Of a stretch of 36,622 bases of DNA, positions 7,301 to 36,151 are shown one piece after another. Made by a program: the position numbers and the translations under genes. This DNA comes from a virus. Numbering within the stretch: position 1 is the first letter of the stretch; each line of letters opens with the position of its first letter. The stretch covers positions 1-36,622 of IMG/VR virus record IMGVR_UViG_3300020428_000038; one strand, given 5' to 3'. A model generated the notes under the pieces. The model had not been told where the DNA came from. It made no database searches and saw only the letters and a program-made list of their open reading frames with translations.

Positions 7301-10300
7301 GTTGCTCTAGGATAGAAGTGATTTGTAGCGTGATTATCTTGACCACAAGTAAATTTGAATGCCCTAGTTTTTAATTTTACGCCATTACCTTTCTTAAGTG
7401 AATGTTCACCAATATCTACAGTCATTAATCCAGTGAAAGGATTATAAGATCCACTGGTAGGAGTATGAGTTACAATAGTAGATACACCAACAATAACCTT
7501 AAACTTATCATCAGCAACAGTTTCTATAGGTAACCACTGTTGATGTACTGGATCTGATGCCCTTGGATAACTCTTGATGGACTTTCTACCATCCATCATA
7601 CATCTGAAATTAATAGAGTCTCTATCAAATTGAACCCTATCTCCAGTTATTAGATTATGATCACCATTTGTTGTGACTGTCATAATGCCAGATGCAGCAT
7701 CATAAGTCGCAAAATTAGTTGTTTGAATTAAATTACCACTCAATCCATGACGGTTAGAGAATACAGTTACAATACCAGTGCTAGCAGTATATGCAGCAGT
7801 TGTTATTGAGTAATTCTTAATCGTTGATACACCAACATTAATTGTAATAGTGGAATCAGTTGTTGCTCCAATACCAACACTCTTATTACCACCAATAGGA
7901 TCATCGGGACGAGGATAAGCATGTTTTGTCTTATGTTGATCCCTGAAACATGTCATTACAACTGCAGCTGTGTTAATCCCAACAGTATCAGTTGCTTTCT
8001 TCAGTCCTCCAGCAAGACCAACGAAAAATATATGTTCAGTAGTGTTTGTAGATACGCCAACAAATACGGAGAATGTATTAACTCCTACATTATAAATTGG
8101 TAACCATCGATTAGCATATGGATCGGATGAACGAGGATATGCGTGAGGAGTTGCATAATCATCTTCTTCACACTTAAATGAGACTGATCCAGTACCAAAA
8201 TTAACGTAATCTCCACTAAGGAACCCATGATTTGCGATAGTAGGTTCTATTACTCCAGTAGAAGGAGTATATGTTGCAGTTGTAATCGTGTGTGAAGTTG
8301 GAGAAGTATATGAATGACCAGATCCAACTGTCATCACTAAGTCACCTGTGGCAGCGTTATAACTCGCATCTGTGATTGCTCTTTCTTGAACAGTCGATAC
8401 ACCAACTCTAACTTCAAAAGTATTAGATGTTGTGTCAACAATTCCTAGTTCTGTATTATATGCTGGGTCTGTAGTACGAGGATATGCATGTTCTGTTGCA
8501 TAATTATCTTTCGCACACTTGAATGTTAATGCACCTTTAGATATTTCAACCTTTGTTGAAGGTCTCTTAAGTCCCCCAGAAACAGCAGATTCAAATGTAT
8601 GGTCATATACACCACCAGTAATTACAGCATCTGTTCCCACTCCACTAAATGTATGTCCATAATCACCACCAGCAATTACGCCCTCAACTGCAACACCTTG
8701 GTTTGGAACAAACGAGTGTATGAAGTTTCCAAGAGTTGTTACACCAACATTAGCTGTGAATATTGTACCAGCACAACTAACAATAGGAACTGCTGTATTA
8801 TAGAAAGGATCTTGTGGTCTTGGATAGAAATGATTAGTTTGGAAAGCATCCTTAGCACATTTAAAGACAATAGAACCTTCTTTAAATTTAATACTATCTC
8901 CAACAGTAAATCCATGAAGTCTATCAAGAGAAATAGTAATAATACCAACAACAGGGTTATAATCTGCAAACCTAATGTTGTATTTGACTATTGTTGAAAC
9001 ACCAACCTGAACGGTTATTGTAGTAGTTCCTATACCTGTTATGGGAACAGCAGTATCATAAACAGGATCAGTTGAACGAGGATAATACTTAGTAGCTGTC
9101 TGACTATCCATCTCACACTTAAATCCAAGTGAAGATGGTTTAATTTTAATACTAGAACCTGCTAATAGATCATGATTACCAATAGTCATGGTCATCACAC
9201 CTACAGAAGGTGTGTATAAAGCATCAGTAACACTGTAATTAACAATGGTACTCATACCAACAAATACTTCAAAATTATCTGTTGTCTTATTGGATATTGG
9301 CAACCACTGATTACTTACAGGATCAGTAGAACGTGGATATGTATGAGTAGTAGAATTACCATCCATTGAACACTTAAATCCAATGGCATCGTTATCAATC
9401 TTAATTTGATCACCATTGGCAAAGTTATGGCCAGGAACAGTTATAGTTAATATTCCAACAAGAGCGTTATATCTTGCAGTTGTTATTGTATGGGATGTTG
9501 GGCCTGATAATCCGTGGCCAGGGACTGTTAAAACTAATGCACCAGTACTAGGAACATAATCTGCATTTGTGGGTGTAGTTGTACCACCACCAACTATATC
9601 GATACAGTCAGCAACCGTTCTTGCTGGAACGAATGTATGGGCATAATTACCACCGACTTTTATAGTCTTATCTTCAGAACTAACAAATTTGTGTTCGTAA
9701 TTACCACCACTAAATGTAGAATCAGCAGTAGCACTAATAAACTTATGTGTAAAGTCTCCACCAGTTAATAAAGCACCTTCTTCAGAACGAATGTACCTAT
9801 GATTATAAGCACCACCACCAATTAATGCACCAGCATTTGCCTTATCGAATACATGAGTGAATTGATCCTTTGGAGGAGCAAATCCAACATCAATAGTAAC
9901 TGTTGTTCCAGCAATACCAACAACAGGAAGTGAAGTATCGTATGCAGTAGAACGACTTCTTGGATAATAATGTTGATTTGCACCATTATCTAACTGACAT
10001 GTAAATCCTAAACCAGTAAATACAACATCTTTACCCACTTTATAACCGTGAGCAGCAGAGGTTGTTACTGTCATAACACCAGTAGTATTATCATATTCAG
10101 CACTTGATATCCCTAGTGCTGGATCGTAATTACAAGTGAATGAAATACCAGAAAGAATAACACAATCATCTTCTGTTAGATTGTGATTTTTTCTAGTAGT
10201 AATAGTTGCAATTCCAGTCTGTTCATCATACTCTACACCACCAACATTTACTGTAGGGGCACTAGTAAATGTAACAGCAACACCACTTGCATAAACAAAG

Positions 10301-13299: not shown

Positions 13300-16200
13300 T
13301 TAATATGGAGGGTTATCATCGTGACTTGCCAATGTTGTGTCGGCAGTCGTAACTGAAGAATTCATTCTATTGGTATCATAATAGAAATTATTAGCAACTG
13401 TATTCTCTGCTTTGGCTGTTCTTGCCTGAGCAAATGTAGTGTCACCAATCTGTTTAACCTTAAGGTACTCATTATCTATCTTCAGAATATCTCCTTTTGT
13501 TAAAGAACCAATTCCTGCAGAAACAGTTACACCTTCATCAGTTTGACCAAGAGCACTTGAAACAGTTATACTTAGTTTTTTGTTCTTTATAGGAGTTTGA
13601 ATAATATTATCCACCATAATCAAAGCCTGTTTTGTTGGTTCCTGAACTGTAAGGATATGTGTCCCCGTTCCTAATCCAACAAAATTGAAAGGTAATGATG
13701 TAGATAATCCAGCAACTCTGAATTTAAAGTCATCAACTTTCTGTACGAATAACTCATTAGGCATGACATTTGTACCCAACTCAACAGGAGTTAGATATAC
13801 GTCATCAGTTGGTGTAGATCCACCAATATATGTTCCAGCAATAGCAACTACATTAGTAGAAGCATATCCCGTTCCTCCAGTAACAACACCAACAGCTGTA
13901 ATATCTAAATTACCATCTCTAGTAATATTAAATACTGCACCAGATCCAGATCCATTATTCGTGGATGGAACATTACTGTACATGGTAGAAACACCAGTTC
14001 TTGTACCAGTAACCTTTGTAATTGGGAACGTCAAATTATTTGCAGGAGTAGCCCCACCTAAGTGTGTACCAGCAATACTTACGTTGTCTCCAACAAAGTA
14101 ACCAGCACCACCATTAATCAATGTAACTGCTGTAGATATACACTGTCCAGTAGTTTGATTGAAATCGAACTTGACTTGGAAATGAGCACCAGAACCTCTA
14201 GTACATATACCAGCTAATCCACCATTAGGATTACCAAAACCATAAATTCGGAATTGATCGCCTGGAGGGTTAGCAGTTACTGCAGTACCCGTTACGGGGC
14301 CTGGGATTTGGACGTTATATCCATTTTCAAATATTGCACTACCACCAATACCAGATGATCTGGCAGCCATAATAATATCTTTAGTACCTGTTGTATGTGA
14401 TGTAATTGCAATACCAATCTTAGATCCACCGTCGGTGTCTAAAGTTACAGTCTGACCAGTCTGGAAATCATGATTCTGAATACTAATGATGTTAAGTGCT
14501 AGATCAACAACGTTTCCATTAGCAGAATTATATTGTTTCTTAAAGGCAGGGACGCCGCCAGAAGTTAACTGGAACTGTTTACTTCCAACCAATGTTCCTG
14601 TTCTATCATGAGAACCATCAAATCCACTAGAGATATCATCCAAATTTAAGACCTTATTGGTCTTATTCATAACAAAACTCTTAATTGGTCTTCCTTCTGG
14701 GAAATAGATTCTCTGTACAGAACCGTCTGGTAGAGGATCGTCCTCAGTAACCATAGCAAAATTATCTCTTTTACCCAAATACATCTCATTATCAATATTC
14801 AAAATAAGGTCAATCTTAATATCAGCAGGTTTGACCTTCATGTTGGTTGACTTAGCAATACCAACAGATACCAAATTCAGTGTTTCAGCATCCTTCTTAG
14901 AATCACTCTCTACTACAAGATCAGAGAATTCTAAGAATCCAGATGGATGAACAATAGATTTTACAGCCTCTTTCCACTTATTGTGTGGTAACTTACTCTT
15001 AATTGAATATGCAAACTTTTGATAATAGAAGTTGTCTGATAATCTCTGACTGAAATCATTCAGAATACCAACATTCATATCATTCTTGGAAACCTTATCC
15101 CTAGTAACTCCAAGAGTTGTATCAACACTAAATCTGTTGACATCTCTTACATTACCATGAAGTTTAGACACCTGACCATACAATGTATCTCCAGGCAATA
15201 GTTTTCCAATAGTATCTCTAAGTCTAAGTTGACCAATGTTTCCATTCCAACCATTCTCAGAAACATATCCTTCAAATCTAACAGATGTTACTTTCTCACC
15301 AGAAACATACTTGGCATCGTCAATAATCGTCATATTGAACTTAGCCATGTCATTGTAGTTAACAATGGATCCTAAAGTGAAGTCATCATCATAGGCACCC
15401 AAAGTAACAGTAGAAATGCCAGGAGCATCATTCATACTGAAAGTAACTGTGTTATTAGCGGTACTTACACCTGTTACTGAATAGAAAGTATAGTCATAAT
15501 CTGCAGAGTTGAAATTGCCCTCTCCATTCGTTATTGATAGTGGTTTTAATCTACATCCTTCAACAAATACCTTGTCTCCTACTGCAAATGGTAGTTTAGT
15601 TTCAGTAGATGCAAATCCAGTTTTTATTGGAATATTGAACTGTGCATCTAATAGTAATTCAACAGTAACAGATGTTCCTGAATGAGTTATGGCATCAATG
15701 TCATAACCATTAGAGTTATTAGTTGTAATTATGCTTAGTGGTTCTTTAAATTCATAAGCATTCTGAGTAACTTCTACACTATCAACAGATCCACCAATTA
15801 CATGTGCAGCAATTGATACATTATCATTACCACGAACAGTAAGTTTAGGTGGTTGGTTATATCTCTGACCACCATCAACAACTTTAATTTTATCTATTCT
15901 AGCAATACCACTTATGTCAACAATTGCAGGAACACTTAAGAATGGCAATAGAGTAGGATCAGTTGGATAATCAAATCCATCTTTTACTCTTTCAATAGTA
16001 TCGATCTGACCTATTTCTGGTGAAGAAACCTTAACAATGGCATCTTGACCTTGAGTACTTGCAAAACCAATAACTTTAGGTAGAACAGTATATCCTTTGC
16101 CAGGGAAATTGATTTTAGTCTGAGAAACTGGGCCCCTTGCAGTAGGTGAAGTTGTACTATATGTGATAGTACTTACACCTGTTCTAGAGACATATTTCTG

Positions 16201-19200
16201 AGCTTCTAGTGGTTTTTCTAATAAGTTGAAAGTAAAGTTCTTATCATCACTTCTTATTACTTTATGTTCATTCTTTAGAACAATATTTCTGAATGTTATG
16301 TTGTTTCTTCCAGTAACATCAGTATCAGATGATCCATATGTCTTTCTTGCATCTGAAGGAACAACAGGAGTCAAATTATAGAATGTTTTACTTGGCCATT
16401 CAATATCAGTTCTAAGAACTACAGTTGCATTAGCATTTCCAGAAATACCATTTCTTGCAATGTTAAATCCAGATAAACTTGTACCATAAACGTCTAGTCT
16501 TGAATTGAAAGTAATATCTTCAAAGAAGTCCAATCTCATATCCAATAGACTGTTATCAGAAACATCAAAAGTGATGGTATTTCCTGTTGTAAAGTCTACT
16601 GGTGGATTGATCTTAGCAATATAACTCTTATTACCTGATTGAGATTCAGTTACCGTTGTTATTGCTACAGGATTAGAAGCAAAAACATCAGATTTATACT
16701 TACAAAGTTTTATAGATTCAGTATCTTCCCTAAGAACAAAATAAGTCTCATTATTTGACAACCCAGCAATAGTATTTCCACTATCATAATAAACTACTTT
16801 ATCTCCACTCTGTAGGTCTTCATCAGCAATGTTTATCTGAGTTAAATCAGTAGAGAAATTAGTATATGCAAATCCTACTTTCTTTGTAGTTACTTTTGCA
16901 ATAACAGGATCATATCTAAGGGCAACTGATTCAGCAGACTTAGGTAATGCATCTAATGTAATTGTGTCACCAGTTAAAAGACCATGAGCAGAAGATACTC
17001 CTACATCTCCATAGAATCTTTCTATCTTTGTAGTTACTTTTGGATACTTAGTTGTAAGTGAATGTGCAAACCCAGAATTAGATGCAGGTGTATAGAACCA
17101 TATTGCATCTCCTGTCGTACAGAACCCTGCAGTTGCCAATCCAATATAATCTGGTTCTAAGTTAATTGCCCAAACATCTCCATCAGGAAGAACTACCGTA
17201 CCCACACCAGAAGTTGCACCAGCACTAGTTTGTGCCCAAACAATAGAAGTTCCACCAATACCCATGTTATAAGTCAAGTTTTGACCAGTAAAGAAGGTAT
17301 GATCTTTAATATAAATTCTTTGTTGAGGAACAAACCTATTTTCTATAGTTTGTACAGCTGTGGTACTTAAACCAGTAAGAGGTATATCATAGTGTGTTCC
17401 AGTAGAACCAACACCAACAGTTTGTTGTGGATTAAAGTAGGTTACATAGTTTTCAAAAGTAAATTGAGATACCGTTGAAGCACCAACTGGGAAGTGGAAT
17501 TCCTTTGGTTTTAATACTACATTAAATTCTGCAGCTGCATGTGTCATTGCAGCACCAACAAAATTCTCTCTATTTACGAATAGTCTGGAGAACTGTTCAT
17601 CAATATTAGTAACTAAGAAAGTCTCTGTTCCTATACCAATATGATCACTTGGTTTAAAACCTCTGGTATCTGTAACATATATGTGAGTACTAACTCCAGT
17701 ATTAGTTACATTGTCTAAGAAAGTTGCCAAACCTACAGTTCTAGTAAGAACGGTAACCTTTTGAGGCCCATTAAACTCAGTAAATTGAGAAGTATCAATA
17801 CCACTTAAAACAACTGTTTCACCACTTGATATCTCATGAGGAATGGTTGTTACACCAACAATTAAACCTTTGTCTTTTCTTAATTCAGTGCCTGGGAATG
17901 TAGAGACTCCAATCGTTACAGATTCTACATCTTTACCAAGAATTTCACTTACAACAATACTAGCACCAGTTCCATCAGTACCTTTATTATCTAATGTAAG
18001 AGGATCGTCTATTTTATACCCATCACCTCTAGCAAAAATAGTTACTGAAGTTATTCCAGCATTCTTTGTTTTTCTAACTTCAAATTCCTGTTTTAAGGCA
18101 TCCTTAACATCATCAATCAACTCATAATCGGAATTACCATATGTTAGATAATATGGAGATATATTTCTAGTAAGTTTCCTAGAAGCAATATCAATATCTT
18201 GGTTAAAGAAAGTTACAAAGTTCTCTTCAATTGGAGTGTCTTTAAATGCACCACCAATCATATATGGGAACTTAGGTTTAGCAACACCACTAGAATCAAC
18301 GTCAACACTGTAGAAATAAGCATAAGTTCCATCAGGGAACTGTGGAGTAACACAATACCTTCCACCATGTTCGTCTAAGCCTCCAGAGTTATCGAAGAGA
18401 TAATCATTAACAAAGTATCCAAACGCAAAGCCAGGAGGTCTTAAACCAGATCTAAGACTAGTATCAAGGATATATCCACTACTCAATCTAATAATTGCAC
18501 CACCAACAGCATTCTGATAACCATAAGGGCCGTAAATTGGATTACCATCATAGGCATATCCCAATACTGGTGAATGTGTTGCGTTAGGTGTCTCTAAGTT
18601 ACCAGAATCAATGTTATCTCCAAGTTGATATCTCAACTTCTGTGGGGGATACATTCCTATTGTTTGTAGTTGATATTCTGGGTTTGTACTTGGTTTAGTT
18701 AATATAGAGTCCTCAACACTGATAATGTTCTCATTCTTCTGAACTTGATTAAGTTTCCACTCACGAACGTTAGCAATAAACTTAGCAGATTTACCTCTGT
18801 TCTGTAGATCTAAAGTAGTATCACTAGAAGCATAACCAACACCACCATCAAGTATTGATACACCTGTTATTCTATTATTAGTAATAATAGGTCTAATATC
18901 AGCAAAGTCTCCTGTAGGACTGTAAATGTTAATATCAGAGTCTTCTCGGTATCCTTGACCAGTAGCAAGTATCTGAACGTCTACAATAGAACCATCGATA
19001 ATGATTGGTTTCAATAATGCCTGATATACAACTGTTGATATTCCAACATCAGGTCTTCTATGGAAGTCCATGATATTAGTACAACCATAACCAATTCCAC
19101 CTTCTTCTAAGTAAACACTTTCAATAGATCCAAGAACTAAAGGTGATATTTCAGGTTTGATGATAGTTGTGCTACCAATAGCAGATAAACTCTCTACGTT

Positions 19201-22200
19201 TACAACTATGTTTGGATACTTTACAGTATGTTTACCAGTACCCAAACTCTGAATTATAGCGTTTTTATTTTTGTTATAATTCGTAAGATCCCTCTGTGTT
19301 GAAACTCCAACATCACACAGTCTAAACCTGTTGGTGTCAATTGTCTTAACTGCATATTGTGTGGTACTTGAAAGTCCAGAGCAAAGAGTTCCTGAACTAG
19401 AATATTCAACTATTTCTCCATCACTGAAATTATGATCGTAGGCAAGAATATAATCATCAGATGTACTGATACCCGACTGAACATCTCCATTAACAGGTCT
19501 TGCTTGAACAATAATCTTCTTGTTTGAATATCCAGAACCCGATTCCTTTACATAAATTCGAGTTATAGTATTTTTAGCATTAAGTGAAGTAAATTTATGG
19601 AAACCAAAACTAATATTTCCTAAATTAACGGTATTAATTCCAACTTTAGCATCTTCTGAACTATTGTATAACTTAATTCTTTTTTCATTCTCTACTCCAA
19701 CGAAGTAAGTAGATCCACTAACAACGTTGACTATAGGAGTGTTACCTCTAGCATCATAAACAACACCTTCACCAACTTCAAAGTTGTGTCTTGCCTCAAA
19801 AGTTACACTTTCATCGGTAGTGTTGACTGATGTACCATCTGCCTTGAAATTTGCTACAATTCTACCCTTTACAAGGTTAGACTCTAGAACAGCACCAGAT
19901 CCATTGCCACCACTGACTGTAATCTTTGGTTTTTCCTGATATCCAATGCCAGGAGTAATTAATTTAACTTCTCTAAATGATCCAGAAATATTGGCATGAC
20001 CAATAGAACCAGATCCTTGTTGATCGTTAATGACCAAAGGTGGGCCAGTTATAACATCGTAATCTTTGCCTGGATTAGTTACCTTTATATCAATTAGATC
20101 ACCGTGGAAGATTTGTTCATCAAAAACAGTTGGTGGGAACAGTTCAACACCATTCGCCATCAATCCTACAGCTCTGTTATTAACTTCTCTCTTGTTTGGA
20201 TCATCAAATAATGTCTTTTCTTTGATGAATGGATACTTTCTGAGAATCTTTTGATTCTTCAGTGTTTTATTCTCCCATCCAGACTTGTAAATGAATTGAC
20301 CAGTGGTATTTGTTCTTATAGCAATATACTTTTTAGCAAATACGTCAGATCCACTAAACGACAAATAGAATTCAGTTTGGTTGACATTGGTTACAAAGTA
20401 GATACCAGTCGCAATTCCACTACTAGTAGTGTTGTCCCAGTAGATTTTATCTCCAGTTACGTAATTGTGGTTTAATGGAGTGTTGGCAGCGGGGTCTTCG
20501 GATTTTATGGTATATGTATAGCCACCACCTAACAGAGGTGTTCCGTACCCATCTGTGACCTCTACAGAACTACTCTTAACCCATACCTTATTGTCAGTTG
20601 CAAAAATAGGGTAATTTGGTAGACCAGATGATGCTACATAGAAATATTTCTCTTCTTTATCAAGATAACTGTTCTGAATACCAACGGGGAAGTTATCTAC
20701 CCCTGCAAAATAGTTGGAATTATGAGAAGCCTTGGTAACTGTCTTGGTAATAGTGTCTGCACCAGTTGGAACAGTACCACTAGTTTGAACAACAATAGTA
20801 TTTGAATATACTTTCGATACATTCGTTGAGGCATATTCAATCTGTTTAATTGTAACATCAACAGATTCCTGATTCTGATTTTTTAACTTTAGAATCTCAT
20901 CAATATAGAAAACACATGAATCATAAAGTACAATTCTATAAGTATTGACGTTTACCTGATTAAGGGTAGCAATACTATGACTAGAAGGAATGTTATAGAT
21001 CCAATTATTAAATTTCGCACTCTCACCCATATCCTTACCGAATGAGAGTAACTTAAGGTTATCCCCAAGTTTCATATTCGTAGATTGAGTAGTATCTACT
21101 TGGTCAATAACATTAACAAGTCTAAATTCAAGTTTTGATGTCTGCCCATATCCTGCATAAGCATACGCAAGTTTATTCTCAAGTATATCTGCACCAAAGA
21201 CTAAAGAAGTACTGATGCCAGTAACTCCTAAGAATTGGTTTATAGTCTTATCAGTATAACGTAAATTTAGGAAGTTTGCACCTGCTCTAGGTTTTACTAG
21301 CAGAGTACCACTCTGACCAAATCCAACTGTAGAGTCAACAACAAGAGTCTCCGAATTCTCATCAGTTAATTCCAATGCCTTCGTCTTACCAGGCACTTGG
21401 AAAGTACCGTCAAAAGATGTAGAGTCTAAGGATACTTCATAAAAGTCCTGTTGATTAATGGGTCTATACTCTACATTATAAATCGAAGCACTAACAGTAC
21501 CAATACCACTTACATCTTGATATAAGAAGTTACCAACAGTCTCTAATGGTTGTCCACCAAACAAGTTTTCTAAAAGAACATGCTTAGTTTTGAAATATAC
21601 GTTATCAGAGGGAACTAATGTTCTTTCAATTGGTTTGATGAGTTCAATATCCTCACCATAAAGAAGTTTGAATAGGATCTGATAAGATGCATCAGTTCCT
21701 TTCGACATATAGAAGTCTTTTGCCCTTGTTAGGACATTAGTGACTGATGTTCCAGATATAAACGATCTATTCTCAAAGCCAGGAAGGAATTCTGTCTTAA
21801 ACTTAGTAAAGAAACTCTGTAAGAAGAGATTACTTAAATTAGTTACTACGGCACCTTCAATGTGTGCCTTTGCAGAAGTTTCTGCAAAATTTAAGAATTC
21901 TGCAGCATCTTCTTTCGATATCTGATCTATTCCACTAAAACCTCTTGCACATCCATCAAATGTAGTATCAGTCTTTGATGTATATGTAATAATCTCATCA
22001 TCAATCTTTAGTAGACCATATGTTTCAGGCCAACCAATAGTAGACGAAACTTCTATACTAGTATCACCTGCAAGTGCAGATAGAGTAAGAATTGTAGCTG
22101 GTATTAAAGTTTCATTATTAAAAGCACCAATCTTTCTATATTCTGGTAAATTGGTCGCTAGATCAACTACACCAGATTGATGTTCTTGAGATTCGTAATA

Positions 22201-22302
22201 TTGATTTAGAAAAGCCCCAAACAAAGGAGATTCCTGATTCAAAAACTCAGGAATCTGTGATTCTATTAAATGAGAGACTTTTACTCTTTTAATATCCGTC
22301 AT
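13300..22302 (-). CDS. gp7: Giant gp7-like baseplate wedge protein with YHYH domain
   Basis: This is a 3000-residue protein whose ATG directly abuts the gp6 stop codon (TAAATG). T4 gp7, the wedge organiser, has 1032 residues, so this is about three times longer. The identification rests on position after gp6 and on an N-terminus (VKVSHLIESQIPEFLNQESP) that I associate with cyanophage gp7. A KIDDE-x-I-x-Y segment with CARGFSG lies at residues about 95-125, and a similar ILKIDNEYLKV segment lies near the C-terminus, about 2905-2950. Residues about 1245-1355 form a YHYH domain (LGYAYDGNPIYGPYGY, then DEHGGRYCVTPQFPDGTYAY). Between these are many GxGY beta repeats. No frameshift is visible. It should sit in the baseplate wedge, with the extra mass possibly facing outward. 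Confidence 0.88.
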   Translation of the reverse strand: MTDIKRVKVSHLIESQIPEFLNQESPLFGAFLNQYYESQEHQSGVVDLATNLPEYRKIGAFNNETLIPATILTLSALAGDTSIEVSSTIGWPETYGLLKIDDEIITYTSKTDTTFDGCARGFSGIDQISKEDAAEFLNFAETSAKAHIEGAVVTNLSNLFLQSFFTKFKTEFLPGFENRSFISGTSVTNVLTRAKDFYMSKGTDASYQILFKLLYGEDIELIKPIERTLVPSDNVYFKTKHVLLENLFGGQPLETVGNFLYQDVSGIGTVSASIYNVEYRPINQQDFYEVSLDSTSFDGTFQVPGKTKALELTDENSETLVVDSTVGFGQSGTLLVKPRAGANFLNLRYTDKTINQFLGVTGISTSLVFGADILENKLAYAYAGYGQTSKLEFRLVNVIDQVDTTQSTNMKLGDNLKLLSFGKDMGESAKFNNWIYNIPSSHSIATLNQVNVNTYRIVLYDSCVFYIDEILKLKNQNQESVDVTIKQIEYASTNVSKVYSNTIVVQTSGTVPTGADTITKTVTKASHNSNYFAGVDNFPVGIQNSYLDKEEKYFYVASSGLPNYPIFATDNKVWVKSSSVEVTDGYGTPLLGGGYTYTIKSEDPAANTPLNHNYVTGDKIYWDNTTSSGIATGIYFVTNVNQTEFYLSFSGSDVFAKKYIAIRTNTTGQFIYKSGWENKTLKNQKILRKYPFIKEKTLFDDPNKREVNNRAVGLMANGVELFPPTVFDEQIFHGDLIDIKVTNPGKDYDVITGPPLVINDQQGSGSIGHANISGSFREVKLITPGIGYQEKPKITVSGGNGSGAVLESNLVKGRIVANFKADGTSVNTTDESVTFEARHNFEVGEGVVYDARGNTPIVNVVSGSTYFVGVENEKRIKLYNSSEDAKVGINTVNLGNISFGFHKFTSLNAKNTITRIYVKESGSGYSNKKIIVQARPVNGDVQSGISTSDDYILAYDHNFSDGEIVEYSSSGTLCSGLSSTTQYAVKTIDTNRFRLCDVGVSTQRDLTNYNKNKNAIIQSLGTGKHTVKYPNIVVNVESLSAIGSTTIIKPEISPLVLGSIESVYLEEGGIGYGCTNIMDFHRRPDVGISTVVYQALLKPIIIDGSIVDVQILATGQGYREDSDINIYSPTGDFADIRPIITNNRITGVSILDGGVGYASSDTTLDLQNRGKSAKFIANVREWKLNQVQKNENIISVEDSILTKPSTNPEYQLQTIGMYPPQKLRYQLGDNIDSGNLETPNATHSPVLGYAYDGNPIYGPYGYQNAVGGAIIRLSSGYILDTSLRSGLRPPGFAFGYFVNDYLFDNSGGLDEHGGRYCVTPQFPDGTYAYFYSVDVDSSGVAKPKFPYMIGGAFKDTPIEENFVTFFNQDIDIASRKLTRNISPYYLTYGNSDYELIDDVKDALKQEFEVRKTKNAGITSVTIFARGDGYKIDDPLTLDNKGTDGTGASIVVSEILGKDVESVTIGVSTFPGTELRKDKGLIVGVTTIPHEISSGETVVLSGIDTSQFTEFNGPQKVTVLTRTVGLATFLDNVTNTGVSTHIYVTDTRGFKPSDHIGIGTETFLVTNIDEQFSRLFVNRENFVGAAMTHAAAEFNVVLKPKEFHFPVGASTVSQFTFENYVTYFNPQQTVGVGSTGTHYDIPLTGLSTTAVQTIENRFVPQQRIYIKDHTFFTGQNLTYNMGIGGTSIVWAQTSAGATSGVGTVVLPDGDVWAINLEPDYIGLATAGFCTTGDAIWFYTPASNSGFAHSLTTKYPKVTTKIERFYGDVGVSSAHGLLTGDTITLDALPKSAESVALRYDPVIAKVTTKKVGFAYTNFSTDLTQINIADEDLQSGDKVVYYDSGNTIAGLSNNETYFVLREDTESIKLCKYKSDVFASNPVAITTVTESQSGNKSYIAKINPPVDFTTGNTITFDVSDNSLLDMRLDFFEDITFNSRLDVYGTSLSGFNIARNGISGNANATVVLRTDIEWPSKTFYNLTPVVPSDARKTYGSSDTDVTGRNNITFRNIVLKNEHKVIRSDDKNFTFNLLEKPLEAQKYVSRTGVSTITYSTTSPTARGPVSQTKINFPGKGYTVLPKVIGFASTQGQDAIVKVSSPEIGQIDTIERVKDGFDYPTDPTLLPFLSVPAIVDISGIARIDKIKVVDGGQRYNQPPKLTVRGNDNVSIAAHVIGGSVDSVEVTQNAYEFKEPLSIITTNNSNGYDIDAITHSGTSVTVELLLDAQFNIPIKTGFASTETKLPFAVGDKVFVEGCRLKPLSITNGEGNFNSADYDYTFYSVTGVSTANNTVTFSMNDAPGISTVTLGAYDDDFTLGSIVNYNDMAKFNMTIIDDAKYVSGEKVTSVRFEGYVSENGWNGNIGQLRLRDTIGKLLPGDTLYGQVSKLHGNVRDVNRFSVDTTLGVTRDKVSKNDMNVGILNDFSQRLSDNFYYQKFAYSIKSKLPHNKWKEAVKSIVHPSGFLEFSDLVVESDSKKDAETLNLVSVGIAKSTNMKVKPADIKIDLILNIDNEMYLGKRDNFAMVTEDDPLPDGSVQRIYFPEGRPIKSFVMNKTNKVLNLDDISSGFDGSHDRTGTLVGSKQFQLTSGGVPAFKKQYNSANGNVVDLALNIISIQNHDFQTGQTVTLDTDGGSKIGIAITSHTTGTKDIIMAARSSGIGGSAIFENGYNVQIPGPVTGTAVTANPPGDQFRIYGFGNPNGGLAGICTRGSGAHFQVKFDFNQTTGQCISTAVTLINGGAGYFVGDNVSIAGTHLGGATPANNLTFPITKVTGTRTGVSTMYSNVPSTNNGSGSGAVFNITRDGNLDITAVGVVTGGTGYASTNVVAIAGTYIGGSTPTDDVYLTPVELGTNVMPNELFVQKVDDFKFRVAGLSTSLPFNFVGLGTGTHILTVQEPTKQALIMVDNIIQTPIKNKKLSITVSSALGQTDEGVTVSAGIGSLTKGDILKIDNEYLKVKQIGDTTFAQARTAKAENTVANNFYYDTNRMNSSVTTADTTLASHDDNPPY

Positions 22303-29719: not shown

Positions 29720-30070
29720 TTAAACAACCTCAAGACGATTGCCGTGGTCTAATAGTATCATACCATCAGAGAATGACTCTGTTTGGTTATACATTGAGAC
29801 GAACCAATTCCAGTTCTTTTGAAATACTTTTGCACCGTACATTACTTCACTAAGTAAAGCATTTAAACGACTTTTTGTCGTTACTGTTTCATAACCACAG
29901 GAGTCTAATTTGACTGCCTTAGTGTTATGATCTACAGTGGCAATTTGATGACCATGTAGCGAAATAGTGGAACAATTAGTGGAGTCGTTGTAGCAAACTG
30001 ATGTGTTTGATTTGCTCCAATTAGTGCGGTTAATTACTGCACTGTTCATTGCTCTTTCGATTTTACGCAT
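29720..30070 (-). CDS. Conserved phage hypothetical protein (TTKSRLNALL family)
   Basis: The protein has 116 residues. Recognisable blocks are NRTNWSKSNTSVCYN (14-28), ISLHGHQIATVDHN (36-49) and TTKSRLNALLSEVMYG (64-79). I recall this set (N-W, a Val/Leu-HG strand, TTKSRLN) in many tailed-phage proteins of unknown function. The start follows a -10 TATAAT by 22 nt, with no ribosome site. It is likely a beta-rich small protein. Confidence 0.85.
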   Translation of the reverse strand: MRKIERAMNSAVINRTNWSKSNTSVCYNDSTNCSTISLHGHQIATVDHNTKAVKLDSCGYETVTTKSRLNALLSEVMYGAKVFQKNWNWFVSMYNQTESFSDGMILLDHGNRLEVV

Positions 30071-30092: not shown

Positions 30093-30118
30093 ATTATAAT
30101 AAATCATTACCCCTTAAA
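30093..30118 (-). promoter_or_regulatory. Putative middle-type promoter (TTTAAGG-N13-TATAAT)
   Basis: TATAAT at 30093-30098 on the minus strand has TTTAAGG exactly 13 nt upstream and no -35 hexamer at normal distance. The predicted transcript starts about 15 nt before the ATG at 30070. T4 MotA boxes lie 12-13 bp before the -10, but the box sequence differs. Confidence 0.55.
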
Positions 30119-30190
30119 TATCAACCACTCTTGGTCCACTTTGTCCACTGTCACACCTTAAGTATTACTAACTGTTCACTCCTTAAGTAT
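30112..30190. repeat. Three CCTTAA(G/A)TAT direct repeats
   Basis: CCTTAAATAT is at 30112, and CCTTAAGTAT at 30156 and 30181. The last two sit in a longer match (CAC, two bases, CCTTAAGTAT) 25 bp apart. They lie directly upstream of the promoter at 30093, so they may be operator or activator sites. Confidence 0.6.
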
Positions 30191-31938: not shown

Positions 31939-32086
31939 CAAATCTTTGTTGAGCAATAGACCCGACATATTCTTCGAGGATTGCTACATCTTGAGACTGT
32001 AATTGTTTGAAATTGGGTGTTACTAACTCCTCCCAAGTTTCATCAAATAAAGTTTCAAGAATTGATTCATTTTGAATGACTGACAT
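31922..32086 (-). CDS. Small acidic hypothetical protein
   Basis: The protein has 54 residues (MSVIQNESILETLFDETWEELV...SIAQQRFEDMCQ). It is acidic and helical. GAGG lies 8 nt before the ATG. It is monocistronic, with one of the four palindrome-type promoters upstream and a terminator over its stop. Function unknown. Confidence 0.8.
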   Translation of the reverse strand: MSVIQNESILETLFDETWEELVTPNFKQLQSQDVAILEEYVGSIAQQRFEDMCQ

Positions 32087-32111: not shown

Positions 32112-32169
32112 ATAATAACACTTTTTAAGGTGTTATGGGTGAAATAGTGGACAGTTTGTGAACTGTCAC
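32112..32169 (-). promoter_or_regulatory. Composite palindrome promoter, copy 1
   Basis: The minus strand reads a palindrome GACAGT-N6-ACTGTC (32150-32167), then TGTCCAC-N8-CCAT, a 17-nt spacer, and TATTAT with an extended TG. The palindrome begins right after the stop codon at 32170. It drives the 54-residue gene at 32086. Confidence 0.75.
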
Positions 32170-32475
32170 TTAATTATACTTTGTTAACTCACTTTCTGAT
32201 ATATTGTTAAGCATATCACGATAAGTTTCATCATCAAATGTTAACTCTATCTCTTCTTTTAGTTCGATTTGATTATACTTATCAAAGTCATCTTGTAGAG
32301 TCTGATAGATAAATTGTTCCATTGATTCGAGATCCATGCTATCAATAATTGCATCACAATAACTGTTCTTAAGTATCTGTAACTCAGGGGAACTTAATGT
32401 CCTATGTGTTACAATCACTTTTGCATCTAACTCACTATTTGTAGCATTGGGATTGGCAATTTGACTGTAATTCAT
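32170..32475 (-). CDS. Small acidic hypothetical protein, 101 residues
   Basis: It starts at the ATG at 32475, which overlaps the previous stop as ATGA; an ATG 45 nt upstream would overlap that gene much more. The sequence includes LDAKVIVTHRTLSSPELQIL and an acidic C-terminal half (IELKEEIELTFDDETYRDML). It is last in a run of three overlapping genes, followed by a composite palindrome. Function unknown. Confidence 0.8.
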   Translation of the reverse strand: MNYSQIANPNATNSELDAKVIVTHRTLSSPELQILKNSYCDAIIDSMDLESMEQFIYQTLQDDFDKYNQIELKEEIELTFDDETYRDMLNNISESELTKYN

Positions 32476-32660
32476 GTTAGATAGTTGTGAATAGTACGGT
32501 GAGGTTTGATATACTCCCAAGTCCTACAATCAACCTCTTCGTTATCAATGTAACAACGAACATTGTCGGACGTAGATGATACTTTGGTTGGTGTAATATC
32601 TTTGGAATTATACCAAAAATCATCCCAATCTTTAGGGGAGTTAGTAACATCTTCAATCAT
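32472..32660 (-). CDS. Small acidic hypothetical protein
   Basis: The protein has 62 residues from the ATG at 32660 (MIEDVTNSPKDWDDFWYNSK). GAGG lies 9 nt before this ATG, and the start overlaps the previous stop by 8 nt; an ATG 9 nt upstream is an alternative. It has an aromatic, acidic start and two Cys near the end (VRCYIDNEEVDCRTWEY). Function unknown. Confidence 0.72.
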   Translation of the reverse strand: MIEDVTNSPKDWDDFWYNSKDITPTKVSSTSDNVRCYIDNEEVDCRTWEYIKPHRTIHNYLT

Positions 32661-32865
32661 AATCTTCATCCTCTTCGTTATCAGCGTCCCAGTCAATTAA
32701 ATCTTCTTCATCAATAGGAAACTCACCCAATTTGTAGTTACTAAGTGAACCTATCATTGACCAAACTTTCTCACCTGATAACATATATTCATTGCAAATA
32801 TGTTCAACTGCATCTTCAACAACTTCGAGAACAGTTGTTGCTTCTTGTTGTAATTGTTGATCCAT
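32653..32865 (-). CDS. Small very acidic hypothetical protein
   Basis: The protein has 70 residues (MDQQLQQEATTVLEVVEDAVEHI...DADNEEDEDYD). The helical N-terminal half leads to a highly acidic tail. It is the first gene after the terminator at 32897. Its charge resembles DNA-mimic proteins, but nothing else supports that role. Confidence 0.78.
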   Translation of the reverse strand: MDQQLQQEATTVLEVVEDAVEHICNEYMLSGEKVWSMIGSLSNYKLGEFPIDEEDLIDWDADNEEDEDYD

Positions 32866-32896
32866 TTGTGTTAATTAGTAAAGAACAGTTTGTAAT

Positions 32897-32919
32897 AAAA
32901 AAGGGGGTTAATCCCCCTT
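32897..32919 (-). terminator. Intrinsic terminator
   Basis: On the minus strand AAGGGGG pairs with CCCCCTT around a 5-nt loop, followed by a T run. It directly follows the stop of the 70-residue gene at 32920. Confidence 0.9.
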
Positions 32920-33132
32920 CTAGTCAGGTAATGATCTAATTTTGTTTACGATAGAATCTACTCTATCTACAACAGAAATTCCACCAATTAGATCCTCATC
33001 ATTTGCATCATCATCTTGATAATGAATGTAATCATCCATTGAAGCATAGATGGTTTCCCATTCTGACTCTGTGAAAAATCCCTTGATAGTCTGTAACTGA
33101 TCGTAGGAATAATCTCTCACATTTGTTTGCAT
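32920..33132 (-). CDS. Small acidic hypothetical protein
   Basis: The protein has 70 residues (MQTNVRDYSYDQLQTIKGFF...DDDANDEDLIGGISVVDRVD). GAGG lies 10 nt before the ATG. It is monocistronic: the composite palindrome promoter at 33161 is upstream and a terminator follows. Function unknown. Confidence 0.82.
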   Translation of the reverse strand: MQTNVRDYSYDQLQTIKGFFTESEWETIYASMDDYIHYQDDDANDEDLIGGISVVDRVDSIVNKIRSLPD

Positions 33133-33160
33133 AAGGTTGATCCTCGTTTGTTACTCTCTT

Positions 33161-33220
33161 ATTATAGGTCATAAGACCATCAATGGGGAAAAATGTGGAC
33201 AGTTCGTAGACTGTCACACA
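33161..33220 (-). promoter_or_regulatory. Composite palindrome promoter, copy 2
   Basis: The minus strand has palindrome GACAGT-N6-ACTGTC (33198-33215), TGTCCAC-N8-CCAT, a 16-nt spacer, then a perfect TATAAT. The palindrome starts 8 nt after the stop codon that ends the gene at 33223. It drives the gene at 33132. Confidence 0.78.
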
Positions 33221-33222
33221 TT

Positions 33223-33456
33223 TCATTGCTCTTTGGTTTCCCTATTGTCATAATAAGTATCAACAATACCTTCTAATTTAGAGAAGATACTGTTAATTTC
33301 TTTGGAAACTAAACACTCAGTTTCATAATCTTTGTAACCATCAATTAGGGTTTCTAGTGTACATAAAATGACACCAATTTCACCCTCAGTTAGTGTTACA
33401 TTGTGAGGACGATCTAACTCATCTTCAATGTTAGGAATGTACTGTGATCTTTCCAT
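33223..33456 (-). CDS. Small acidic hypothetical protein
   Basis: The protein has 77 residues (MERSQYIPNIEDELDRPHNVTLTEGEIGVIL...VDTYYDNRETKEQ). The LTEGEIGVILCTLETLIDGY segment looks like a helix. It starts 5 nt after the previous stop and is last in a run of six genes from 34396. Function unknown. Confidence 0.8.
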   Translation of the reverse strand: MERSQYIPNIEDELDRPHNVTLTEGEIGVILCTLETLIDGYKDYETECLVSKEINSIFSKLEGIVDTYYDNRETKEQ

Positions 33457-33461
33457 GTTAA

Positions 33462-33659
33462 TTAATACTCAGAACGGGCAAGAAATGGTGTAATGTTATC
33501 AATTTTGTATCCTATTACTTTTGCTTTAACGATCTTATCTTCTTCATCATAATGATACGCAGAATTCAAATAACATTGAATTTCTTCACATAAATGTTCG
33601 CCATTTATGTCATCTTCATTATCAAGAATGATGTTGCAATAGTAAGTGATTTGTTTCAT
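33462..33659 (-). CDS. Small hypothetical protein
   Basis: The protein has 65 residues (MKQITYYCNIILDNEDDINGEHL...VKAKVIGYKIDNITPFLARSEY). It alternates strand-like and acidic stretches. The start overlaps the previous stop as ATGA. Function unknown. Confidence 0.8.
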   Translation of the reverse strand: MKQITYYCNIILDNEDDINGEHLCEEIQCYLNSAYHYDEEDKIVKAKVIGYKIDNITPFLARSEY

Positions 33660-33796
33660 TTGGATGGGATGAATTCAGGGTTTTTAACTAATACTTTGTG
33701 ACCTCTTTTTGTGTCTATTACTTTAACATATAGACACCTCTTTTCACTATCTAATGTAGCAAATTGAGTGAAAGATTTACGTCTAATTATTTTCAT
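33656..33796 (-). CDS. Small basic hypothetical protein
   Basis: The protein has 46 residues (MKIIRRKSFTQFATLDSEKR...GHKVLVKNPEFIPSK). It is basic, unlike its neighbours, and probably a small beta protein. GAGGAGG lies just upstream, and it overlaps genes on both sides as ATGA. Function unknown. Confidence 0.78.
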   Translation of the reverse strand: MKIIRRKSFTQFATLDSEKRCLYVKVIDTKRGHKVLVKNPEFIPSK

Positions 33797-33957
33797 TCTG
33801 CCTCCTCAATCGTGTAGACTTCGTAATCATCATCATCAATGAATTGCCAATCGATAGTATCACTTTGTATGATACTTTCAAGATCATCTTTGCTCTCTGC
33901 CTCAACAAATGCAACGTAGTTTGTTACTCTGGAGGCACACAATCTGTATTCTTTCAT
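33793..33957 (-). CDS. Small acidic hypothetical protein
   Basis: The protein has 54 residues (MKEYRLCASRVTNYVAFVEA...QFIDDDDYEVYTIEEAE). A strand, helix, strand pattern is apparent. GGAG lies 9 nt before the ATG. The last codons, GAG GAG GCA GAA, double as the ribosome site of the next gene. Function unknown. Confidence 0.8.
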   Translation of the reverse strand: MKEYRLCASRVTNYVAFVEAESKDDLESIIQSDTIDWQFIDDDDYEVYTIEEAE

Positions 33958-33959
33958 TG

Positions 33960-34217
33960 TTAAGAACTCCATACGAATTGTGGTTGATCGAGTATAATAT
34001 CTCTGACTCTTTCTCTGTCTAAAGTATCACCATCACCCCATTGATATGTAACATTGAAATAGAGATTGTTGTTCTCTTTTGCTACATTTATGCGGCGGGC
34101 ATACTCTTTAATAGCAGTGAAAATGTCATCCTTAGTTAAACCTTTAATCGGATAAAGATCAGATTGTGGGTTATAGAAATCCCACACATAGTCAATGAAT
34201 TCTTGTAAATCGTTCAT
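33960..34217 (-). CDS. Small conserved cyanophage-type protein (LQEFIDYVWDFY)
   Basis: The protein has 85 residues (MNDLQEFIDYVWDFYNPQSDLYPIKGLTKDDI...LDRERVRDIILDQ). I recall relatives in other T4-like cyanophages that share the start (EFID-x-V-x-DFY), the middle T-x-D-x-I, and the end (D-R-E-x-V-R-D-I). It overlaps the previous stop by 1 nt (TAATG). Function unknown. Confidence 0.84.
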   Translation of the reverse strand: MNDLQEFIDYVWDFYNPQSDLYPIKGLTKDDIFTAIKEYARRINVAKENNNLYFNVTYQWGDGDTLDRERVRDIILDQPQFVWSS

Positions 34218-34396
34218 TAAACTAACCCCAATACTTTGTAATGATTAACATTTTGACTAGGAAATTGATGAACTGAAGATACTTCTTCAACAGCAACAAT
34301 CTTCCCAGTTTTGTTATAGTAATCATCCGCAATTATGTTTGCATAAGTGTAATCATCTGCAAACTGAATTGGATCACTAAAAACAATAAACTTCAT
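34217..34396 (-). CDS. Small hypothetical protein, first gene of a run of six
   Basis: The protein has 59 residues from the ATG at 34396 (MKFIVFSDPIQFADDYTYAN...NHYKVLGLV). Upstream in-frame ATGs exist at 34447 and 34468. The predicted transcription start (about 34466) rules out the one at 34468, and only 34396 has a GGAG (11 nt away). An alpha/beta pattern with an acidic middle is apparent. Function unknown. Confidence 0.7.
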   Translation of the reverse strand: MKFIVFSDPIQFADDYTYANIIADDYYNKTGKIVAVEEVSSVHQFPSQNVNHYKVLGLV

Positions 34397-34472
34397 AGGA
34401 AAAGTTGCTCCAATTAATGTGAAATGTGGTCTTGTCTGTTGCTCCATAAAGGCAGAACTTGACCACATTTAT

Positions 34473-34530
34473 ATAATACATGAAAAAACCCCCTAATGGG
34501 GGTTTGGTGTGACAGTTTGTTTAGTGTCTA
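34473..34530 (-). promoter_or_regulatory. Composite palindrome promoter, copy 3, with a terminator in its spacer
   Basis: The near-palindrome GACACT-N6-ACTGTC (34511-34528) overlaps the stop codon of the upstream gene. In register with the other copies follow CCAT (34496-34499), a 17-nt spacer and TATTAT (34473-34478). The intrinsic terminator at 34483-34505 spans CCAT and the spacer. One arm position is mismatched. Confidence 0.62.
34483..34505 (-). terminator. Intrinsic terminator
   Basis: On the minus strand AACCCCC pairs with GGGGGTT around a 4-nt loop, followed by a run of T. It lies 23 nt after the stop of the 50-residue gene. Confidence 0.9.
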
Positions 34531-34680
34531 CTTTGGAATTGATTCTATCTCTAATACTGTATAATGACCTTTATTGTTTACATCCTTAATCCTAAATTCA
34601 TAATCTCCATTAACACCAACTGTAATAAATGCCTCAGGATTGTATTCTTTAAGGACGTTAATTAATTGGCGTACGAGCAT
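34528..34680 (-). CDS. Small hypothetical protein
   Basis: The protein has 50 residues (MLVRQLINVLKEYNPEAFIT...KGHYTVLEIESIPK). The helix followed by strands (FITVGVNGDYEFRIKDV) resembles many small phage proteins of cyanophages. It starts 1 nt after the previous stop region and ends a run of five genes from 35651. Function unknown. Confidence 0.78.
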   Translation of the reverse strand: MLVRQLINVLKEYNPEAFITVGVNGDYEFRIKDVNNKGHYTVLEIESIPK

Positions 34681-34681
34681 A

Positions 34682-34855
34682 TTAGTCTCCAAAGATTGAA
34701 CCAACTAAAACTTCATATTCTTTCACTTCTTTATCATTTAGTCGGGAAACTAAGTCATCTAATAGTTCACCAAGAAGATGATTATCTTCTTTAATGGCAT
34801 AACCAAGATCTTGAATTAGATCCCTTCGTTGTTGTAATTGAGAGTCAGTTAACAT
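34682..34855 (-). CDS. Small acidic hypothetical protein
   Basis: The protein has 57 residues (MLTDSQLQQRRDLIQDLGYAI...EYEVLVGSIFGD). It is mostly helical by appearance. The ribosome site GGAG is contributed by the last codons of the upstream gene. Function unknown. Confidence 0.78.
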   Translation of the reverse strand: MLTDSQLQQRRDLIQDLGYAIKEDNHLLGELLDDLVSRLNDKEVKEYEVLVGSIFGD

Positions 34856-34858
34856 TAT

Positions 34859-35008
34859 TTATATCTCCAAGTAGGGTGAATCTGTCTCGTGAAAGTTAAC
34901 ACCAACAGGTGAAAATTCATTGCGAGAAGTGTCAAATAGTGTTACGACTTTGAGCAACTTATCATCATCAAAGTTCTCAAGTTCTGTTAACAAATCAAGG
35001 TAAGTCAT
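34859..35008 (-). CDS. Small acidic hypothetical protein
   Basis: The protein has 49 residues (MTYLDLLTELENFDDDKLLK...VGVNFHETDSPYLEI). It has an acidic N-terminal helix, then strands. It lies 8 nt after the previous stop. Function unknown. Confidence 0.76.
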   Translation of the reverse strand: MTYLDLLTELENFDDDKLLKVVTLFDTSRNEFSPVGVNFHETDSPYLEI

Positions 35009-35016
35009 GGATAGTT

Positions 35017-35208
35017 TTAGCGAACAACGTATTCAACTTCGCCATCGGCGATGTCTGCCTGAACACCTAATTTCTTGATGATTGTTCTAATCTTTACATC
35101 ATACTTAACAGCAACGTCATCAGGATTTGTACGTTTAGTTAATACATGAATCAAGAAATCACACTCAGGTGATGTTAGTTTAGAATCTAACATTGTTTGA
35201 GGTTTCAT
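35017..35208 (-). CDS. Small hypothetical protein with a possible helical DNA-binding-like segment
   Basis: The protein has 63 residues (MKPQTMLDSKLTSPECDFLIHVLTKRTNPDDVAVKYDVKIRTIIKKLGVQ). The DVAVKYDVKIRTIIKKLGV part could form a helix-turn-helix (valine-lysine-tyrosine turn), but the match is weak and it may be only a helical fold. The ATG overlaps the previous stop as ATGA. Function unknown. Confidence 0.78.
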   Translation of the reverse strand: MKPQTMLDSKLTSPECDFLIHVLTKRTNPDDVAVKYDVKIRTIIKKLGVQADIADGEVEYVVR

Positions 35209-35651
35209 GCTACTACTTCCTCCTTTTCTGGGTTTGGTATTAACGCAGGGATGACATTTGTGTCTACTATGTTATAATTATCATCATAAGAATGACTGAT
35301 TTCATAACACTCCCATTTGTTATCTGTAGTGAATACATACACATACTCTTCACAAGAGTTAGCATTACTCACATAATCATCAAAGTTTAAATCTAATCTA
35401 GGTTCAGTATTTTCACCTCTATCATTATAATATAGAGGGGCAGTTTCACCTAATTCTTTTCTATCCCAGTCGTCATTTGAGTCGCATGATGACATATCGC
35501 CACCATCAATTAACTCTTCTATCTTCTCTCTAGTGTTGAACTTTGCTTTTAAAGTAACACCTAACCACTGAGGATAACCATCCCAATGATGATAAACAGA
35601 GACGATACTTCCGTTGTCTAATTGTAAACCAATTCGGGATCTTGTGGACAT
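35205..35651 (-). CDS. Conserved phage protein (MSTRSRIGLQL family)
   Basis: The protein has 148 residues. The start MSTRSRIGLQLDNGSIVSVYHHWDGYPQWLG and ELIDGGDMSSCDS are very characteristic of a family I recall from many tailed phages, with no known function. A beta-rich core with a HHWDGYP turn and an acidic tail is apparent. It starts about 18 nt after a terminator T tract. No ribosome site is seen, so the mRNA may be nearly leaderless. It leads a run of five genes. Confidence 0.9.
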   Translation of the reverse strand: MSTRSRIGLQLDNGSIVSVYHHWDGYPQWLGVTLKAKFNTREKIEELIDGGDMSSCDSNDDWDRKELGETAPLYYNDRGENTEPRLDLNFDDYVSNANSCEEYVYVFTTDNKWECYEISHSYDDNYNIVDTNVIPALIPNPEKEEVVA

Positions 35652-35668
35652 AATAATAATAATTAAAG

Positions 35669-35707
35669 AAAAAAAGAGGGGGCAATGTAATACAAATGAT
35701 TGCCCCC
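35669..35707 (-). terminator. Intrinsic terminator
   Basis: On the minus strand GGGGGCAAT pairs with ATTGCCCCC (9 bp) around a 12-nt loop, followed by CTC and seven T. It lies 13 nt after the stop of the small gene at 35720. Confidence 0.9.
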
Positions 35708-35719
35708 ATTGTTTGTTAG

Positions 35720-35833
35720 TTAGTTTCCAGCATTACCATCAACGTATGCTTCAATAATTTCTAGCAATTCAGCACCAGTTTGTGCTTCTTCTAGTGAAAA
35801 GAAAAGATCGTTGATTTCAGTTGAAACAGGCAT
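35720..35833 (-). CDS. Small acidic protein, start uncertain
   Basis: The protein has 37 residues from the ATG at 35833 (MPVSTEINDLFFSLEEAQTG...AYVDGNAGN). The frame stays open upstream as LKLGIVVNLPKQ, with only CTG-type starts, so translation may begin earlier. No ribosome site is seen. It is acidic and helical. It lies 59 nt after the previous stop and just before a terminator. I keep it because of its composition and position, but it is the weakest gene here. Confidence 0.6.
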   Translation of the reverse strand: MPVSTEINDLFFSLEEAQTGAELLEIIEAYVDGNAGN

Positions 35834-35892
35834 TTGTTTAGGTAAATTAACAACAATACCCAGTTTTAAGTCATTTGGTAGGACTATAAGAT

Positions 35893-36072
35893 TTAATTTG
35901 CAGTTGATAGTTTCTGATGTAAATCGTATGTAATATAATTTCTTATATCACTAAATTCAGGATCAGTTCCTTCAGGTTGTTTTGCAATACTCTTTTGGAA
36001 AGTATTCAAACGATCTGCAATAATACCACTAAGAGCAACAAACTCTTCATTGGTAAATGTGATTGTTTTCAT
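35893..36072 (-). CDS. Small hypothetical protein (MKTITFTNEEFVALS)
   Basis: The protein has 59 residues from the ATG at 36072. I chose this start because GGAGGG lies 6 nt upstream, the best ribosome site in the window; an ATG 63 nt upstream would begin before the predicted promoter. The sequence includes TFTNEEFVALSGIIADRLNTF, a helical segment, and an acidic middle. A composite palindrome promoter precedes it. Function unknown. Confidence 0.85.
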   Translation of the reverse strand: MKTITFTNEEFVALSGIIADRLNTFQKSIAKQPEGTDPEFSDIRNYITYDLHQKLSTAN

Positions 36073-36093
36073 TGAATTCCCTCCATTGATACT

Positions 36094-36151
36094 AATATAA
36101 CAGATCCACCAGAGAATGGCGGATTTAGTGGACACTAATCAAAGTGTCACA
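36094..36151 (-). promoter_or_regulatory. Composite palindrome promoter, copy 4
   Basis: The minus strand has palindrome GACACT-N6-AGTGTC (36131-36148), TGTCCAC-N8-CCAT, a 16-nt spacer, then TATATT with extended TG. The palindrome begins 8 nt after the stop codon at 36156. It drives the 59-residue gene at 36072. Confidence 0.78.

Follow-up and report, generated by a model that had tools for sequence, protein, structure and literature searches.

Promoters of T4-like marine cyanophages with a palindrome in fixed register upstream of the -10 element

Introduction

Doron et al. reportedly described in 2016 a novel regulatory element that controls early genes in Syn9, with similar results for P-TIM40, and the element is said to be conserved and abundant in T4-like cyanophages. 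The palindromic element analysed here is probably the same early-gene element, so we do not call our finding new in kind; it has very probably been reported before. The two belong to the same phage group, and Syn9 has our palindrome in its small-gene cluster and before the gene for the DUF6267 protein. No open paper that we found quotes the motif sequence. What may go beyond the 2016 element is the variant with CCAT, the terminator nested within the promoter and the occurrence in S-TIM5 and S-SKS1.

The late promoters activated by P2 Ogr and P4 delta have a dyad near -55, a strong -10 and a poor -35, and are read by the host sigma-70 polymerase together with a phage activator. Their half-sites follow TGT-N12-ACA and they act late, whereas the palindrome described here is GACAST-N6-ASTGTC and its genes are probably early; an Ogr-like zinc finger was not noticed here. 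The promoter early stem-loop (PeSL) of T4-like phages, as quoted in PMC4503421, couples a stem-loop to an early promoter that lies between operons. In that quoted form PeSL is without an upstream palindrome, whereas here the stem-loop is optional and lies inside the promoter. A stem-loop of S-PM2 at 11369-11391, noted in the same paper (PMC4503421), falls exactly between a palindrome at 11350-11367 and its -10 at 11400-11405.

Cyanomyoviruses lack MotA and AsiA, and it is unclear how their early and middle genes are controlled (PMC2984593). A comparison of 16 cyanophages sought sigma-70, T4 late, Pho and NtcA sites (PMC3037559); NtcA sites have been predicted and PhoB sites tested in cyanophages (PMC3037559, PMC10976474). 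Marine cyanophages do without the T4 proteins by which early and middle promoters are chosen, so their way of taking over host transcription is an open question. A genome-wide description of the element, covering its consensus, register, optional -35, nested terminator and taxonomic limits, provides a DNA bait for the missing regulator and a means of predicting which genes of uncultured phages belong to the first wave.

Results

The window, by which we mean the whole 36.6-kb virus record that was analysed, belongs to a T4-like marine cyanophage with genes for baseplate wedge proteins, very large ORFs nearby and 2OG-Fe(II) oxygenases, and its DNA is similar to that of S-SSM7, P-SSM2 and S-SM2. 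Two of the ORFs near the baseplate genes, of 3631 and 3000 aa, occupy 1339-12234 and 13300-22302 on the minus strand.

All four promoter copies sit on the minus strand in the tiny-gene cluster of the window. The first has the palindrome GACACT-TTGATT-AGTGTC at 36131-36148 within the flanks TGTG...CAC, CCAT at the -35 place (36116-36119), a stem-loop at 36104-36124 between palindrome and -10, and the -10 TATATT at 36094-36099, followed by a ribosome-binding site and an ATG at 36072. The second combines the imperfect palindrome GACACT-AAACAA-ACTGTC (34511-34528) with a CCAT (34496-34499) that lies within an intrinsic-terminator stem-loop (34486-34505), and with the -10 TATTAT (34473-34478). In the third, GACAGT-CTACGA-ACTGTC (33198-33215) is followed by CCCCAT (33183-33188), TATAAT (33161-33166) and the start of a 70-aa ORF at 33132, and in the fourth, GACAGT-TCACAA-ACTGTC (32150-32167) by ACCCAT (32135-32140), TATTAT (32112-32117) and the start of a 54-aa ORF at 32086. 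These four places agree with the original prediction, and so does their geometry. Each CCAT starts exactly 11 nt past the palindrome and is followed by a spacer of 16 or 17 nt and a TATWAT-like -10; in all four, 40.5-41.5 nt separate the palindrome centre from the -10 downstream, and the -10 hexamer lies 49-50 nt from the first base of the palindrome. The hexamers are perfectly complementary in three of the four palindromes, the exception being that at 34511-34528, and a TTGACA -35 is absent throughout. The number of copies stands at four for the predicted form, but there is a fifth, weaker copy at 30096-30152, in which GTTGAT (30120-30125) replaces CCAT between the palindrome GACAGT-GGACAA-AGTGGA (30135-30152) and the -10 TATTAT (30096-30101), upstream of a 116-aa ORF (phrog_554) that starts at 30070. 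ORF starts, each an ATG, lie close downstream at 36072, 33132, 32086 and 30070.

The palindrome on its own, with two mismatches allowed, is not significant in the window (6 found versus 5 expected). Combined with a -10 at 49-51 nt, it gives 7 matches, three of which are opposite readings of the same palindromes, versus 0.03 expected, and none of 100 shuffles reached 7.

The four window sequences are members of a large virus promoter family, present in nearly every marine cyanophage of the T4-like type that was checked. Scanning IMG/VR for the palindrome with CCAT returned at least 119 stretches; among the matches listed, at least 47 sites on at least 43 loci have a correctly placed TATAAT-like -10, mostly 16 or 17 nt after CCAT, and many others look like chance. 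Eight isolates that were not selected for CCAT contain 306 oriented palindromes (one mismatch allowed), 82 of them with a TATAAT-like -10 at 49-51 nt, versus about 3 per position elsewhere in the same isolates and 2-5 in Markov controls. In these isolates CCAT has its peak at 29 nt, with 15 cases versus about 2. We also ran the test in reverse, on 425 candidate promoters of eight phages defined by -10, ribosome-binding site and ATG only: exact left halves of the palindrome are enriched only at 49-51 nt from the -10, and the right half-site chiefly at 37-39 nt.

A matrix of palindrome and -10 was applied to phage genomes at score 16, where counts may include both readings of one palindrome. Since the first eight genomes served as its training set, only the counts outside them are independent, namely ACG-2014f (42), P-SSM2 (31), S-SKS1 (22), S-TIM5 (8), P-TIM68 (4) and the negatives T4, Ma-LMM01, PSS2 and P-SSP7, in which there are no sites; the other genomes gave 44 in S-CAM7, 25 each in P-RSM4 and S-PM2, 20 in P-SSM4, 19 in P-HM2, 18 in S-RSM4, 17 in S-SSM5 and 12 in Syn9 (10-14, varying with the threshold), with controls at 0-1.7. 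Ten Syn9 sites lie at 44777, 47207, 48561, 49081, 51003, 52999, 127495, 130356, 148745 and 162056. The element was found in 13 of 13 marine cyanomyovirus or S-SKS1-type genomes scanned. It is common to three separate lineages, represented by Kyanoviridae, S-SKS1 (Llyrvirus) and S-TIM5 (Aurunvirus), and its copies are few or divergent in P-TIM68 and S-TIM5. At one genome end of S-TIM5 (163-171 kb), a myovirus of separate lineage, a divergent form, GCCAGT-N6-AGTGGCCC, is clustered.

The recurrence proposed for related cyanophages was confirmed by 209 sites in 13 marine cyanophages (score 18 or more, non-redundant, each palindrome read once). In most phages nearly all sites are on the same strand and concentrated in one cluster. 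Their consensus is TGTGMCAGTTNNNNAASTGKCACA, with the promoter-proximal half better conserved, and the general form is TGTGMCAGT-N6-ASTGKCACA, with its centre about 53 nt upstream of the inferred start. The distance from palindrome to -10 is fixed and the -35 is variable. CCAT occupies the -35 place in 21 of the 209 sites (10%), versus about 0.8 expected at one in 256, and a TTGACA-like sequence (5/6) is found at 26-28 nt, the same place as CCCCAT, in 37 (about 18%); most sites have neither. CCAT had been proposed as a fixed part of the architecture; since only 21 of 209 sites in genomes unselected for it have it, we regard it as a frequent variant and not as a defining part. The GACA...TGTC-CAC-N8-CCAT form of the window is one end of a range; of the isolates, P-RSM4, P-SSM4 and S-SSM5 have it most often. 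That the architecture was undescribed is likewise doubtful, given that the element is general in all T4-like marine cyanophages tested and that an early-gene element was reportedly described for them in 2016. The sites conform to sigma-70/SigA promoters, which have a TATAAT -10 with a -35 16-18 nt upstream: the -10 is strongly conserved at a fixed distance, and a TTGACA-like -35 is present in a minority only.

The position frequencies of the 209 sites also agree with the view that the site is not NtcA- or CRP-like. They contain no NtcA triplets of the form GTA-N8-TAC. For CRP (TGTGA-N6-TCACA), TGTGA and TCACA are present but 14 bp apart, with AGT/ACT inside. The T4 MotA box TGCTTTA, which in T4 belongs to the -30 region of middle promoters, is not seen at the -35 place. 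Like the present element, the sites of the cyanobacterial activators NtcA, CRP and PhoB are palindromic or repeated and lie upstream of SigA promoters, but their half-sites, spacing and position differ.

A stem-loop between palindrome and -10 (z below -2 versus shuffles) was found in 90 of 208 sites (about 43%), compared with 17 of 208 upstream controls. These nested stem-loops often have a T run and are often intrinsic terminators; those at 34486-34505 and 36104-36124 are examples from the window.

The element lies upstream of tiny ORFs and also of genes for a helicase (phrog_16), a cobS-like AAA ATPase (phrog_249), a peptidase (phrog_459) and the DUF6267 protein (phrog_455). It is kept before the phrog_249, phrog_459 and DUF6267 orthologues in several genera, the last in P-RSM4, P-SSM4, S-SSM5 and Syn9. 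Such a phylogenetic footprint upstream of orthologous genes argues for function. In the window, the C-terminal part of a DUF6267/phrog_455 protein is encoded near the contig end (36156-36617, minus strand); its orthologues elsewhere are preceded by the same type of promoter.

Discussion

The site, its fixed register, its recurrence and its association with predicted promoters are read from the DNA. We consider it likely that each copy is a cyanophage promoter of the SigA/sigma-70 type with a dimeric activator site, probably serving early genes. A strong -10 and a poor -35 would be combined with a predicted dimeric site whose centre lies about 53 nt upstream of the inferred start. A homodimeric DNA-binding protein sitting directly upstream of the -35 region would recruit or stabilise host RNA polymerase and so compensate for the poor -35, and could turn on many small operons of the hypervariable tiny-gene cluster together with a few conserved genes. 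Many copies would have the upstream operon's terminator nested between activator site and -10, giving a compact terminator-promoter joint.

Activation is the typical role of an upstream site near -53 at a promoter whose -35 is weak. Since a dimer near -53 would contact polymerase and make up for the poor -35, we infer activation, which seems to us quite a bit more probable than repression. The suggestion in the original prediction that the constant distance marks a regulator site acting with RNA polymerase is supported. The early timing of the downstream genes is probable, judging from the gene cluster and from the early-gene element that Doron et al. reportedly described in 2016.

Whose protein would bind the palindrome is a separate matter. 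It could be a host cyanobacterial transcription factor exploited by the phages, which is compatible with activation. Early genes need to be read before phage proteins exist, and the element is common to the Kyanoviridae, S-SKS1 and S-TIM5 lineages with no common phage regulator evident. On the other hand, a search of 84,980 species genomes with strict palindrome patterns that include CCAT (the strict form only) hit none of a cyanobacterium, PSS2 and P-SSP7, which infect Prochlorococcus, are without the element, and the site is unlike the consensus of NtcA, CRP or PhoB. We regard a host factor as a serious possibility, although on balance we lean away from it.

The palindrome could also be an operator at which a phage repressor turns these genes off at a later stage of infection. 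A dimeric palindrome ahead of many small early-type genes would suit such a shut-off system too, and with their strong -10 the promoters might fire unaided. We think this improbable, as the site keeps a rigid distance, lies upstream of the -35 and overlaps neither the -35, the -10 nor the start, and the -35 elements, poor in most cases, fit promoters that depend on an activator.

That the inverted repeat is an RNA or DNA hairpin (a terminator, a processing site or a PeSL-type recombination joint) and not a protein site is very unlikely. Single copies do fold well as RNA, and about 43% of sites have a terminator-like stem nested downstream. However, the positions that would pair do not covary: at the hairpin-partner positions 4 and 13 there are 39 GC and 27 CG but 67 GG and 33 CC, with an odds ratio of 0.48, and we reject the hairpin on that ground. 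As the half-sites do not covary as hairpin partners, a dimeric protein site with two independent contacts is predicted. Moreover, the half-sites conserve base identity beyond mere complementarity, and the repeat lies upstream of the promoter, hence outside its own transcript, at a fixed distance from the -10. That the four copies, lying within about 4 kb, are mere recent duplications of one intergenic region whose layout has no functional meaning is hardly credible, given that spacers, -35 and inner N6 vary between them and that the layout recurs in distant phages, unrelated contigs and before orthologous genes.

As to the identity and origin of the activator, tentatively, a regulator without a recognisable DNA-binding domain, either virion-borne or made from a conserved phage gene, might read the palindrome in three cyanophage lineages, and the nested terminator might act as a combined stop-start joint in many promoters; we would not put this higher than a possible scenario. 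Pfam searches gave no recognisable DNA-binding regulator that is common to motif-bearing phages and absent from T4: phrog_495, phrog_516, phrog_507, phrog_485 and others with this distribution have no regulator-type DNA-binding domain in Pfam. A 63-aa ORF of the window (35017-35208, minus strand), the middle of which resembles a LuxR/GerE helix-turn-helix by eye, has no Pfam hit, and no phage passed the GerE cut-off. For this ORF, 50,697 phage records gave no relative and IMG/VR only 8 close ones, a distribution so narrow that it cannot be a general regulator.

A weak lead is phrog_516. It was not found in T4, PSS2, P-SSP7 or this partial window, and its match in Ma-LMM01 is only at chance level. 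Among the motif-bearing phages, this very basic 47-aa protein is present in 13 of 13, encoded at 13549-13692 in S-TIM5 and with homologues in the 12 other cyanophages.
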